From Anaeromyxobacter dehalogenans 2CP-C (GTDB lineage Bacteria > Myxococcota > Myxococcia > Myxococcales > Anaeromyxobacteraceae), in assembly GCF_000013385.1 (NCBI RefSeq), contig NC_007760.1, positions 3,322,001 to 3,386,000 of the forward strand: a stretch of 64,000 nt of DNA, read 5' to 3'. Shown here in pieces: positions 27,472 to 34,835 of the stretch; within the stretch, counting starts at the first letter, position 1, and every line of letters begins with the position of its first letter. The notes below the pieces were generated by a model. It saw only the letters and a program-made list of their open reading frames with translations. It was not told where the DNA came from and ran no database searches. Position numbers and translations under genes: made by a program.

Positions 27472-29442
27472 CTACCGCATCGACACCTTCTTCGGCGCCT
27501 TCGCGCCCACCACGTCGAGCGCGCCCTGCGCCAGCACCTGCGCCTCCTTCACCTTCTCGATGGTGTACCTCGGCGCGTGCACGCCCGACGACCCGTCGGC
27601 CGCGACGGTGTCGAGGATGGCCTGCGCCTGGTTCGCCATGAGCGTGGCCTGGCCGAGCCTGGCCGGCGGCAGCTTCGCCTTGGCGATGGCGGGGCGCGCC
27701 GCGTCGAGCAGCCGCTTCGCCTCCGCCACGCCCTGCTTCACCGGGTTCTGCCACCCCATCAGCCGGTCGTAGATCTGCTGCTGGTTGGTGAAGTGCAGGT
27801 CCTTCGAGAGCTCCGACCGCGTCGGGCTGTGGCAGCCGCCGGCGCTCTCCAGGTCGTCGTCGCCCCAGCTCGTCCGGCCGCAGGCCCACATCAGGTCCAC
27901 GAACGGCTTGCCGTCCTTCTTCGCGAGGCGCCACGCGCCTTCCTTCCAGTTGCGGTCCTTCCCCGGCGGCGGGTCGAGCGTCTTCGCCTTCGGGTCCACC
28001 AGGATCTTGAAGATGTGCGAGGTGCGCTGCGTGTCGAAGCCGGCCAGGTCGGTGTACTGGATGGCCCCGAAGTTCTCGCAGCTCATCATGCTCGGCATGT
28101 GGCAGCTCGAGCACTTGTTCGCGCCGTGGACGTCGTTGTGGACGAACATGGAGGCCTGCGCCTGGTGGCAGTCCTGGCACTGCTTCTTCAGGCCCGGCAC
28201 GGTGACGCGCTCGCGCCAGTCGTTCGCGGTCACCTCGTGCGGATCGTGGCACGTGGAGCAGGTCATGCCCGACTCCCAGTGCGCGGTGTAGTAGGCCTGC
28301 GAGCCCTCGGTGCCGCAGGACGGGCAGCGGCTCTTGAAGTAGGCGTTGAACGCCTGGCGCGGATCCCTGGCCGCCTCGTCGGCGTTCCAGACGAAGCGCT
28401 GGTGGCAGCGCTCGCAGTTGGAGGACGCCGAGGCGCGCGCGCCCATGAGGTGCGCGCCCGCGCCGTGGCACTCCTCGCAGCTGATGCCCTTGTTGATGGT
28501 GTGCTTGCGCAGCTCCTCCGGCTTGCCCAGCGCCTGGATCAGCTCCTCCTGGCTCTTGAAGTCGAACTTGAACGAGTGGCACACCTCGCAGTACGCGGTG
28601 GCCGGCTGGAACATCATCGACTTGCGGTTCTTCGAGCCGTAGGACGTGAGGCCCCAGGTCTTGCTGCCGTTGTCTCCGAAGTCCTCGAGCTTGGTCGGGA
28701 AGCCCGGGACCCAGGACGCGATCTGCTTCGCCACCTCGGGCGTGAGCGACTCGGCCCAGGTGCGGGAGTGCTGGTTGCCGCCCGCCACCAGCGTGCCGGT
28801 GCCGTCGCGGAGCAGGCCGCCCTCGACGTGGTAGGTGCCGCGGACCAGCCACGCGTCCAGGAAGCCGTACTTCGTGCGCGGCGTGCCGATGATGGCGTAG
28901 ACCGCGTCGGGCGTGATGCCCGGCGGCAGGATGGGCGCCTCGCCGAACTGCGGCTTGGTCAGGTCCTTCGTCTCCACCATCTCGTCGGGGAACCGGACCA
29001 CCAGGTTGTGGCGGGAGCGCTTCCACTTCTCGTACTGCGCGGGGTGGCACTCGCCGCACTTCTTCGACCCGACGAACTTGTTGGGCAGGTCGAGGATCGA
29101 CTCCTGGCCCAGGCGGTAGGTGATCGAGGCGTGCTCGCCGGTCTTCTCGGCGTAGGCCTTGCCGCCGCCGAACTCGACGAACTCCTCCTCGCGGTCGCTG
29201 ATCGTGTACTTGCCGACCAGCCGGCCGTCCTTCTCGTACTTGAAGATGGGGTGGACCTTCCTCAGGTGGTCGTAGAACGCCTTCTCCTGCTCGACGTAGC
29301 CCTGGAGCGTGCGCGGGGAGCCAGAGGCCGCCGGCGCCGCCGGCTTGGCCTCCTTCTCCGCCGCGGAGGCCGGGGTCGTCACCGCCGCCAGCGCGAGCGC
29401 CATCGCCGCGGCGCCCGCCCTCGCCATCCACGTGGATTGCAT
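27472..29442 (-). CDS. Octahaem cytochrome c, MccA (sulfite reductase)-like
   Basis: This 656-residue exported protein has a signal peptide cut near TTPASAA. It has seven CXXCH haem sites: CGECH (129-133), CEVCH, CEECH, CERCH, CSTCH, CQDCH and CSSCH (444-448). It also has an eighth site of unusual spacing: Cys521, then Cys537-His538, which is CX15CH. Seven CXXCH plus one CX15CH is the pattern of MccA, the octahaem haem c-copper sulfite reductase, about 690 residues in Wolinella. Free cysteines in CPSCG and MSCENF are candidates for copper or structural roles. MccA reduces sulfite to sulfide in the periplasm. No mcc partner or dedicated haem lyase gene is adjacent. A different octahaem reductase is possible. 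Confidence 0.82.
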   Translation of the reverse strand: MQSTWMARAGAAAMALALAAVTTPASAAEKEAKPAAPAASGSPRTLQGYVEQEKAFYDHLRKVHPIFKYEKDGRLVGKYTISDREEEFVEFGGGKAYAEKTGEHASITYRLGQESILDLPNKFVGSKKCGECHPAQYEKWKRSRHNLVVRFPDEMVETKDLTKPQFGEAPILPPGITPDAVYAIIGTPRTKYGFLDAWLVRGTYHVEGGLLRDGTGTLVAGGNQHSRTWAESLTPEVAKQIASWVPGFPTKLEDFGDNGSKTWGLTSYGSKNRKSMMFQPATAYCEVCHSFKFDFKSQEELIQALGKPEELRKHTINKGISCEECHGAGAHLMGARASASSNCERCHQRFVWNADEAARDPRQAFNAYFKSRCPSCGTEGSQAYYTAHWESGMTCSTCHDPHEVTANDWRERVTVPGLKKQCQDCHQAQASMFVHNDVHGANKCSSCHMPSMMSCENFGAIQYTDLAGFDTQRTSHIFKILVDPKAKTLDPPPGKDRNWKEGAWRLAKKDGKPFVDLMWACGRTSWGDDDLESAGGCHSPTRSELSKDLHFTNQQQIYDRLMGWQNPVKQGVAEAKRLLDAARPAIAKAKLPPARLGQATLMANQAQAILDTVAADGSSGVHAPRYTIEKVKEAQVLAQGALDVVGAKAPKKVSMR

Positions 29443-31036: not shown

Positions 31037-33043
31037 ATGAAGACGCTCGGCCGCCTCGCCGCGGCGCTCGCCCTCCTCGCCGCCGCCGCGCAGCCCGCCG
31101 GCGCGGCGGCACCGACCCGTGCGGCGGCGCCCGCCGCGGACGAGGGCGCCCGCGCGCGGCTCGACCGCGCCGCGCTCGAGCTCGGGCTCCCGCTGCACTG
31201 GCGCGCCGACGCGAACCGGAACGGCGCCATCGACCCCGCGGAGCTCGCGCTCGTGTTCGGCCTGGACGACCTGCCGCGCGACCACTGGGTCCGCCGCGGC
31301 CGGTTCACCCCGGCGTTCCGGGCCGCCTGGGCGCGGGTCGAGGCCCGGGCCTCCGCGCCGGCGGCCGAGCCCGCCGGCCCCGACGCGGCGCGCCGGACGG
31401 CGCTGGCGCGCGAGCTGTCGCAGCGGCTGTTCGCGGTGGTGGAGTCGGATCTCGCGGACCTTCGCCCGGCGGAGCGCGAGATGCTCCGCCACCTCGTGGA
31501 CGCGGCCCGCGTCATCGAGCGCCTGAGCGCGCGGCAGCTCGGCACCCTCGGCATGGCGGCGCGCATCCCGCCTGGCGACGGCGCCTCCCGGCTCGCGTTC
31601 CTGGTGAACAAGGGGCCGTGGTGCACCGCGCCCGCCACCGAGGGCGATCCGGCCTGCGGCGCGCTCTCGCCGGTGCCGCCGCGCCGCTCCGGCCTGTACC
31701 CCGCCGACCTGCAGGCGGACGCGGGCTTCTGCGCCGGGCTGGCGCGCGCGCCGGACGCGGCCGCGCTCACCAGCCCGTTCACCGCGGTGGTGCGCGACGC
31801 GCGCGGCGGGCTCGCGGCGGTGCCGTATCCGAAGGCCTGGCCCGAGGACATGGAGGCGGTCGCCCGCGCGCTGGAGCGGGCCGCCGCCGCGATCCGGGCG
31901 ACCGACGAGCGGGCGCTCCACGCGTACCTGCTGGCGGCGGCGCGCGCGTTCCGCGACGGCGGCTGGGAGCGCGCCGACGAGGCCTGGGCCAGCATGAACG
32001 CCGAGAACTCCCGCTGGTTCCTGCGGGTGGCGCCCGACGAGACGTACTCGGATCCGTGCGCGCTGAAGGCCGGCTTCGAGCTCGCGCTGGCGCGCATCGA
32101 CCCGGGCTCGCTGGCGTGGCAGCGGCGGCTCGAGCCGGTGAAGCAGGACATGGAGGTGGCGCTGGCGCGGCTCGCGGGCCCGCCCTACGCGGCGCGTCCG
32201 GTCGCGTTCCACCTGCCGGACTTCATCGCCATCGTGCTGAACGCCGGCGACGCGCGCTCGCCCCGCGGCGCCACCGTGGGCCAGTCGCTGCCGAACTGGG
32301 GGAAGGTGGCGAACGAGGGCCGCGGCCGGACCGTGGCGATGACGAACTTCTACACCGACCCGGAGAGCCTCGAGATCCGGCGCCGGCGCGCGGCCTCGGT
32401 CCTCTGCCCCGACACCATGGCGCGGCGCACTCCGGATCCGGACGCCGAGCGGATGGGCTTCGTCCTGCACGAGGCGGCGCACAACCTGGGCCCGTCGCAC
32501 GAGTACGCGGTGGAGGGCCGGACCGCGCCGCAGATCTTCGGCGGGAACCTGGCCGCCATGCTGGAGGAGCTGAAGGCGCAGCAGAGCGCGCTGTACCTCG
32601 CCGGCTGGCTGGCGGGGCGCGGCGTCATCTCGCCCGCGCAGGCGGAGCGCGCGCTCCTCGAGAACGTGGTCTGGGCCTTCGGCCAGGTGAGCGGAGGCGT
32701 CCGCACGTCGGACGGGCGGCTGCGGCCGTACGCGGCGCTCGCCGCGATCCAGCTCGCCGCGCTCGCCGACGACGGCGCGCTGGTGTGGCGCCCGGCCGCG
32801 AAGGCCGCGAACGGCGAGGACGAGGGCTGCCTCGAGCTCGACCGGGCGCGGCTGGGCGCGTCGGTGGAGCGGCTCGAGGCGCTCGCGCTCGGCATCAAGG
32901 CGCGCGGCGACCGGGCCGCGGCGGAGGCGCTGGTGCAGGCGCACGTGGACGCCGCCGGCGGGAAGAACGCCGAGATCCGGCGCGCGATCACCGAGCGCTG
33001 GCGGCGCTTCCCGGACACGACGTTCCTGTACGCCACCCCGTGA
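31037..33043 (+). CDS. M49-like zinc metallopeptidase, exported, with EF-hand-like loop
   Basis: This 668-residue protein has a signal peptide (residues 1-24). An EF-hand-like calcium loop, DANRNGAIDPAE, lies near residue 55. The C-terminal half resembles dipeptidyl peptidase III (family M49): LPNWGKVANEGRGRTVAMTNF, then HEAAH (478-482), then EEL (510-512) in MLEELKAQQSALYLAGWL. M49 enzymes use HEXXGH with an EEC/ARAE-type glutamate ligand; here one residue is missing, giving HEXXH. It would be a periplasmic exopeptidase with an altered metal site. GGAG precedes the ATG. A structured RNA and terminator lie upstream and may regulate it. Confidence 0.65.
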   Translation: MKTLGRLAAALALLAAAAQPAGAAAPTRAAAPAADEGARARLDRAALELGLPLHWRADANRNGAIDPAELALVFGLDDLPRDHWVRRGRFTPAFRAAWARVEARASAPAAEPAGPDAARRTALARELSQRLFAVVESDLADLRPAEREMLRHLVDAARVIERLSARQLGTLGMAARIPPGDGASRLAFLVNKGPWCTAPATEGDPACGALSPVPPRRSGLYPADLQADAGFCAGLARAPDAAALTSPFTAVVRDARGGLAAVPYPKAWPEDMEAVARALERAAAAIRATDERALHAYLLAAARAFRDGGWERADEAWASMNAENSRWFLRVAPDETYSDPCALKAGFELALARIDPGSLAWQRRLEPVKQDMEVALARLAGPPYAARPVAFHLPDFIAIVLNAGDARSPRGATVGQSLPNWGKVANEGRGRTVAMTNFYTDPESLEIRRRRAASVLCPDTMARRTPDPDAERMGFVLHEAAHNLGPSHEYAVEGRTAPQIFGGNLAAMLEELKAQQSALYLAGWLAGRGVISPAQAERALLENVVWAFGQVSGGVRTSDGRLRPYAALAAIQLAALADDGALVWRPAAKAANGEDEGCLELDRARLGASVERLEALALGIKARGDRAAAEALVQAHVDAAGGKNAEIRRAITERWRRFPDTTFLYATP

Positions 33044-33077
33044 GCCGCCCCGGCGCCCCAGGCGGGCTCCGGTCGGC

Positions 33078-33118
33078 TTAGGCACTTCTTAGGAACGGCC
33101 GAGCGATGTTTTAGGAAC
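33078..33118 (+). promoter_or_regulatory. Helically phased direct repeats TTAGG(C/A)AC
   Basis: TTAGGCAC starts at 33078, and TTAGGAAC starts at 33089 and again at 33111. Spacings are 11 and 22 bases, so all three lie on one face of the helix. OmpR/PhoB-type response regulators bind direct repeats spaced 11 bases. The array lies 57-97 bases before the cytochrome gene at 33175, a normal activator position. Confidence 0.55.
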
Positions 33119-33174
33119 CCCGCCCCGCGCGCCCGGGCATCCTCCGCCCGTCTTCGAGACGGACGAGGGGAATC

Positions 33175-34275
33175 ATGGCGGGGGGGAAGTGGCAGCACAT
33201 CGGGAAGGTCGCGGCGGCGCTCGCGGGCGCCGCCGCGGCCGCCCTGTGGACGGCGCCGGGCGGCGCGCGCGCGGCGGGCGCCGCGCCCGAGCGGCTCTCC
33301 GGCACCGGCCTGTTCGCCGACGCCGCGCACGGGATCGTCGCGCCCGGCGTGCTCCGCTACACGCCGCAGTACCCGCTCTGGAGCGACGGCGCCGCCAAGG
33401 CGCGCTGGATCCGGCTCCCGGCCGGCAGGGCGATCGACGCGTCGGACCCGGACGCCTGGCGCTTCCCGCCCGGCACCCGGCTCTGGAAGGAGTTCTCGTT
33501 CGGCGGCCGCCGCGTCGAGACGCGCTACATGGCCCTCGGCCGCGACGGCGCCTGGACGTACGCGACCTACCGCTGGCTGCCGGACGGCAGCGACGCGGTG
33601 CGCGCGCCGGAGCGCGGGCTCCGCGGCGTGGCGGAGGTGGCGCCGGGCGTGGGCCACGACCTGCCCGCCGCCGCCGACTGCCGCGCCTGCCACGAGGGCG
33701 GTCCGACGCCGGTGCTGGGCTTCTCCGCGCTGCAGCTCTCCCCGGATCGCGACCCGCTGGCGCCGCACGCCGAGCCGCCCGGCCCGGGCGACGTGGACCT
33801 GCCCGCGCTGGCGCGCACCGGCCGGCTGCGCGGGCTCCCCCGGGACCTGCTCGCCACGCCGCCCCGGATCGCGGCGCCCTCCCCGCGCGCCCGCGCCGCG
33901 CTCGGCTACCTCCACGCGAACTGCGCGAGTTGCCACGACGCCCGCGGCGCGCTCGCCTCGCTCGGGCTCGACCTCGCCCAGCGCGTGCGCGGCGGCGACG
34001 CGCGCGCGCCGCTCGCCACCGCCGTCGGCCAGCCGAGCCGCGCGCGCCCGCCCGGGATGGGCGAGGCGCCGCTGCGCATCGCGCCCGGCGAGCCCGGGGC
34101 GAGCGTGCTCGTCCGGCGCATGGCCTCGCGCGACCCGCTCCTCCAGATGCCGCCGTTCGGCACGAAGGTCGCCGACGCCCAGGCCCTCGACCTCGTCGCC
34201 GCCTTCGTCCGGGATGACCTCGGACCGGCGACGACCCACCCGGCAGCACCCGTTCACCAGGAGAAGAACCGATGA
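33175..34275 (+). CDS. Exported dihaem cytochrome c
   Basis: This 366-residue protein has an N-terminal signal or anchor (residues 10-33) and two haem sites, CRACH and CASCH, in its second half. The first half (YTPQYPLWSDGAAKARWIRLP) belongs to a recurrent exported domain that precedes cytochrome c modules in proteins of unknown function. The C-terminus holds PGEPGASVLVRRM and LLQMPPFGT, where the Met could be an axial ligand. GAGGGG lies before ATG 33175. The stop overlaps the next cytochrome gene start (ATGA), so they form an operon, probably controlled by the repeats at 33078-33118. The redox partner is unknown. Confidence 0.8.
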   Translation: MAGGKWQHIGKVAAALAGAAAAALWTAPGGARAAGAAPERLSGTGLFADAAHGIVAPGVLRYTPQYPLWSDGAAKARWIRLPAGRAIDASDPDAWRFPPGTRLWKEFSFGGRRVETRYMALGRDGAWTYATYRWLPDGSDAVRAPERGLRGVAEVAPGVGHDLPAAADCRACHEGGPTPVLGFSALQLSPDRDPLAPHAEPPGPGDVDLPALARTGRLRGLPRDLLATPPRIAAPSPRARAALGYLHANCASCHDARGALASLGLDLAQRVRGGDARAPLATAVGQPSRARPPGMGEAPLRIAPGEPGASVLVRRMASRDPLLQMPPFGTKVADAQALDLVAAFVRDDLGPATTHPAAPVHQEKNR

Positions 34276-34835
34276 AGCGCATCGCCACCGCAGCACTCGC
34301 CGCCGCCGCCCTCGCGCTGCTCGCGGCCGCCACCGCCCCGCAGGCCGCCGGCAAGGACGCCGCGATCGCGCGCGGCAAGTACCTCGTCACCATCGCCGGC
34401 TGCAACGACTGCCACACGCCCTTCAAGATGGGGCCGAACGGCGCCGAGCCCGACATGACCCGGATGCTGTCCGGCCACCCGGAGCAGCTCGTCATGCCGC
34501 CCGCCCCCGCGCTGCCCGAGGGGCCCTGGGGCGCCGTGTTCTCGCTGACCATGACCGCCGCGTCCGGCCCCTGGGGCACGACGTTCGCCGCGAACCTGAC
34601 GCCGGACCGCGACACCGGGATCGGCGCCTGGACCGAGCAGGAGTTCAAGGAGACGCTCCGCACCGGGCGCCACCTCGGCCGCGGCCGCCAGATCCTCCCG
34701 CCCATGCCCTGGCCGAACGCCACCCACCTCACCGACGCCGACCTGTCCGCGATGTTCGCCTTCCTCCGGTCGATCCCGGCCATCAAGAACCGCGTGCCGG
34801 CGCCCATCCCGCCGGCCCAGGCGGCCGCCCGGTAG
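34272..34835 (+). CDS. Exported monohaem cytochrome c
   Basis: This 187-residue protein has a signal peptide cut near PQAAG. A single haem site, CNDCH, lies in RGKYLVTIAGCNDCHTP. MPWPNATHLTDADLSAMFAFLRSIPAIKN is typical of class I cytochromes found next to oxidases or dehydrogenases, and gives a Met ligand candidate. ATG overlaps the dihaem gene stop by four bases. It probably shuttles electrons in the periplasm to or from the dihaem protein. Similar cytochromes are often annotated as cytochrome c domain subunits of alcohol or aldehyde dehydrogenases, but no such catalytic gene is here. Confidence 0.82.
   Translation: MKRIATAALAAAALALLAAATAPQAAGKDAAIARGKYLVTIAGCNDCHTPFKMGPNGAEPDMTRMLSGHPEQLVMPPAPALPEGPWGAVFSLTMTAASGPWGTTFAANLTPDRDTGIGAWTEQEFKETLRTGRHLGRGRQILPPMPWPNATHLTDADLSAMFAFLRSIPAIKNRVPAPIPPAQAAAR

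Follow-up and report, generated by a model that had tools for sequence, protein, structure and literature searches.

The gene for a multihaem cytochrome in the genome of Anaeromyxobacter dehalogenans 2CP-C raises two questions: whether its product is a sulfite reductase of the MccA family, and how such an enzyme could receive its haems and electrons when none of the usual partner genes accompanies it. The stretch of DNA that we analysed, here called the window, is 64,000 nucleotides long and belongs to a single contig of 5,013,479 bp. The features of the gene are collected in Table 1.

Table 1. Positions in the window of mccA and of the haem-attachment and predicted copper-ligand codons discussed in the text
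Feature	Position	Strand	Evidence
mccA, octahaem haem c-copper sulfite reductase homologue, 656 aa	27472..29442	-	translation, motifs, alignment, homology
CX15CH haem-attachment site, codons 521-538, CGRTSWGDDDLESAGGCH	27829..27882	-	motif; aligned with the CX15CH site of 4rkm
Cys376 codon, predicted copper ligand (MccA Cys399)	28315..28317	-	alignment
Cys455 codon, predicted copper ligand (MccA Cys495)	28078..28080	-	alignment

Family membership and active site of the cytochrome

The minus-strand translation contains an N-terminal Sec-type signal recognised by eye (...TTPASA-A), seven CXXCH motifs (residues 129, 285, 322, 343, 395, 422, and 444) and a CX15CH site formed by Cys521, Cys537, and His538. 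The same set of haem sites had been described in an earlier note, which gave no strand; the long plus-strand frame over this interval is a shadow of mccA. The three residues of the CX15CH site are invariant in an alignment of 18 sequences and coincide with the CX15CH site of the MccA of Wolinella succinogenes (PDB 4rkm), and therefore the spacing is not a product of chance.

The MccA-like identity proposed in the earlier note was supported. The top relative of known structure was 4rkm (E 1e-198, matched over residues 11-634), with 53% identity over 588 aligned residues, and the second best was NrfA (E 0.002). Because of this level of similarity to a solved MccA, we consider the protein a member of the family and not merely a bearer of a common motif. 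No match to an MccA-specific model was obtained in Pfam or NCBIfam. An AlphaFold model built from the 18-sequence alignment had a mean pLDDT of 42, its confident part being limited to the C-terminal helix bundle; the MccA fold is predicted here from homology.

With regard to the active site, we take the copper ligands reported in the MccA structure paper to be Cys399 and Cys495, and the pocket residues to be Tyr123, Lys208, Tyr285, Arg366, and Lys393. All seven positions carry the expected residue type in the 4rkm chain at a constant offset of 12. The ligand positions (411 and 507 in that chain) align with Cys376 and Cys455 of the window protein, and the pocket residues map to Tyr109, Lys191, Tyr268, Arg349, and Lys370; none of the seven varies among the 18 aligned sequences. 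Outside the haem motifs the protein has three cysteines, 373, 376, and 455. The expectation that the free cysteines of CPSCG and MSCENF lie at the copper site thus held for Cys376 and Cys455, respectively, but not for the first cysteine of CPSCG, Cys373. This residue, three positions before Cys376, is Cys in most relatives examined, but His in one of them and Gly in 4rkm, and was therefore ruled out as a copper ligand of the family. Apart from this Gly, the MccA of W. succinogenes (4rkm/4rkn) shares with the window protein the seven CXXCH motifs and the CX15CH site, the copper ligands and the active-site residues. By sequence, the gene product is predicted to be an MccA sulfite reductase, its activity being suggested by the strong homology and the full conservation of the active site.

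It appears unlikely to us that the MccA fold has been kept for another role, whether with nitrite, hydroxylamine or a metal as the substrate or in the detoxification of sulfite rather than its respiration. Such a role would be consistent with the many acceptors respired by A. dehalogenans (PMC2330069), with the lack, beside the window mccA, of the Fe-S and quinol-oxidising partners present in some other lineages, and with the example of the related nonahaem OcwA, for which nitrite, hydroxylamine, and iron oxides are substrates and sulfite is not (PMC6703420, PMC7096707). However, OcwA has no copper atom, whereas the window MccA retains both copper ligands along with the five other invariant catalytic residues, and the protein to which it is 53% identical is a proven MccA. 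The idea of a fold re-used for another substrate, also raised in the earlier note, finds no support in our analysis because every catalytic residue that was checked has been retained.

Solitary setting and patchy distribution of mccA

Upstream of mccA lies a gene for a metallo-beta-lactamase-fold protein (Pfam scan of near neighbours), and downstream, in convergent orientation, one for a protein with a pyruvate phosphate dikinase ATP-binding domain. None of the PF01578 or ResB matches of the genome and none of its seven NrfD matches falls inside the window, and no Fe-S protein adjoins mccA, as judged from the open reading frames and the Pfam scan of near neighbours. This agrees with the observation, made from the letters of the window, that a haem lyase, an Fe-S protein and a quinol oxidiser are missing next to the gene. 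No mcc operon was found in the genome, and the cytochrome-b-like partner of Edwardsiella (see below) had no match there in a search run without a positive control. The mccA of Wolinella lies within an mcc gene cluster together with a dedicated lyase, whereas that of the window stands alone. A separate feature of the window is a possible operon on the plus strand (31037-34835), encoding a 668-aa secreted protein with no Pfam match, a 366-aa protein with two CXXCH motifs, and a small cytochrome c.

Solitary mccA genes were found in other genomes as well. In Anaeromyxobacter sp. PSR-1 (L013), mccA is 97–98% identical to that of the window and has the same neighbours, again without mcc partners. 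In G009 (L038), which represents another genus of Anaeromyxobacteraceae, a 72% identical mccA stands alone between acetyltransferase-like and glutathione-transferase-like genes (named by eye). Three metagenome-assembled genomes (MAGs) of Holophagaceae (L014-L016) carry mccA with no lyase within 10 kb, although some flanks of the compared loci are shorter than 10 kb, being cut by contig ends. The genes of G009 and of these MAGs share 70–72% identity with the window mccA and group with it, and they have neither a linked lyase nor a linked redox partner; their neighbourhoods are unrelated to that of the window.

The gene is present in 4 of the 24 genomes of the family and in 4 of 195 genomes of the phylum, and this patchy distribution suggests its gain by transfer. 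No relatives were found in plasmid and phage collections. Outside the phylum, the close relatives (65–71%) belong to Holophagaceae, Geobacteraceae, and another MAG of Acidobacteriota, followed by those of Leminorella, Edwardsiella, Campylobacter, Mucispirillum, and Ferrimonas. On the tree, ten sequences from Anaeromyxobacteraceae, Holophagaceae, Geobacteraceae, and the Acidobacteriota MAG formed one group (100/100), in which no member has a linked lyase, and the seven solitary genes of Anaeromyxobacteraceae and Holophagaceae were placed together inside it (90/93).

The mccA loci of Anaeromyxobacteraceae and Holophagaceae contained no lyase, ferredoxin-like, cytochrome-b-like, rhodanese or PpiC gene. 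A rhodanese gene accompanies mccA in Geobacteraceae and the Acidobacteriota MAG (verified with Pfam for L017 and L018), joined in L018 by a PpiC isomerase gene. Near mccA, a fused CcsBA lyase is encoded in Campylobacter and Mucispirillum and a CcmF-type protein in Leminorella and Ferrimonas. The Edwardsiella locus has ferredoxin-like, cytochrome-b-like, and short rhodanese-resembling genes, with no lyase within 10 kb. By eye, the ferredoxin-like and cytochrome-b-like genes found with mccA in Edwardsiella (L021:8345-9776) and Leminorella (L020:16423-17932) take the place of an NrfD-type subunit.

In the loci of Campylobacter (L023, L024, L025) and Mucispirillum (L026, L027), which have the linked CcsBA lyase, CX15CH is replaced by CX17CH, and the copper-ligand cysteines are kept. 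Directly after mccA, three of these loci encode a protein of about 690 aa with six CXXCH motifs (L023:4219-6282, L025:2120-4186, and L026:12002-14092). The version in L023 gave matches to profiles of rhodanese and multihaem cytochrome and weak ones to profiles of the cytochrome b561 type, and the protein is possibly a one-protein electron donor from quinol to MccA.

Haem lyases available to the solitary MccA

Haem attachment at the CX15CH site in Wolinella is the task of a dedicated lyase, CcsA1 (PMC6976685). In Shewanella oneidensis, the MccA-family octahaem sulfite reductase SirA, which has the same long haem site near its C-terminus, requires CcmI and a lyase of the CcmF type, SirEFG (PMC6976685). 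In contrast to Shewanella, no CcmF/SirE protein was revealed in the genome of A. dehalogenans 2CP-C by profile search. A genome-wide search for a lyase, advised in the earlier note, instead yielded three systems of the CcsB/CcsA type, all unlinked to mccA: a split CcsB/CcsA pair at 0.94 Mb (lyase A, L032), a ResB plus CcsA pair at 2.376 Mb (lyase B, L030), and a fused CcsBA at 2.471 Mb (lyase C, L031). A HemX-like protein was recognised by eye at 2.815 Mb. The genome has these three systems although its NrfA, according to a review, contains only CXXCH sites (PMC12285233), and therefore none of them has to serve a CXXCK site in NrfA.

We consider it highly improbable that, for want of a dedicated lyase, the haem of the CX15CH site stays unattached and a seven-haem protein is made. 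The window mccA indeed has no linked lyase, and both W. succinogenes and Shewanella use dedicated ones (PMC6976685). However, all members of the lyase-less group have kept Cys521, Cys537, and His538, which is not expected of an idle site; alteration of the site in SirA left neither detectable protein nor activity (PMC6976685); and the three lyases described above are available in the genome. The best reading is that the solitary MccA would mature with the help of a CcsBA-type lyase that is either general or unlinked.

The candidates for this role are lyases B and C, between which co-occurrence, tree, and gene neighbourhood do not decide. Lyase B was found in all 24 genomes of the family and lyase C in 14; lyase A is absent from G009. 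Within the family, types A and C are often alternatives to each other. In the Holophagaceae MAGs with mccA, which may be incomplete, the lyases found were of the B type alone, accompanied by a HemX-like protein, and one of these MAGs has only a contig-end fragment of lyase B.

One refinement, compatible with maturation by an unlinked lyase, is that lyase C is a dedicated CX15CH lyase that merely lies apart from mccA; we regard this as possible but rather doubtful. All four genomes of the family with mccA also have lyase C, the versions of this lyase in them form one branch (92/75), and its profile scores the mcc-linked CcsA1 proteins (148–166 bits) higher than generic Campylobacter CcsBA (about 128 bits). 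However, it also occurs in ten genomes without mccA (Fisher p 0.094), the branch is weakly supported and may reflect the species phylogeny, and the Holophagaceae MAGs with solitary mccA showed no C-type lyase. On the tree, lyase C was not reliably placed with mcc-linked CcsA1, and its gene neighbours revealed no link to sulfite reduction. The B type is the only lyase type seen in those MAGs. We tentatively propose, with a chance not far below even, that there is a group of MccA proteins without a dedicated lyase (Myxococcota, Holophagaceae of Acidobacteriota, and perhaps Geobacteraceae) in which this B-type, general-purpose CcsB/CcsA pair loads both the CXXCH and the CX15CH sites.

Proposed function and significance

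Overall, we find it probable that mccA of A. dehalogenans encodes a solitary, acquired MccA sulfite reductase that is served by an unlinked CcsB/CcsA-type lyase and a shared electron pool. The enzyme would be periplasmic and would hold seven haems c at the CXXCH motifs and an eighth at CX15CH. One haem at the active site would face a Cu(I) with Cys376 and Cys455 as its ligands, in a pocket lined by the five mapped Tyr, Lys, and Arg residues, and sulfite would be reduced there to sulfide with six electrons. A subset of Anaeromyxobacteraceae may have acquired mccA alone, without its operon; one of the unlinked lyases of the host would attach the haem at CX15CH, and a shared periplasmic or quinol-dehydrogenase pool would supply the electrons.

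As far as its sequence indicates, the protein is an ordinary MccA in an unusual genetic setting. The protein family itself is already known; the unusual point is an mccA that stands without the haem-attaching and electron-delivering genes found with it in other bacteria. On this basis, a metal-reducing soil bacterium is predicted to reduce sulfite; we found no report of sulfite respiration by Anaeromyxobacter in the open-access literature. The rule that a CX15CH site requires a dedicated lyase is based on work with Wolinella and Shewanella, and the solitary mccA offers a natural test of whether this unusual site truly needs one.
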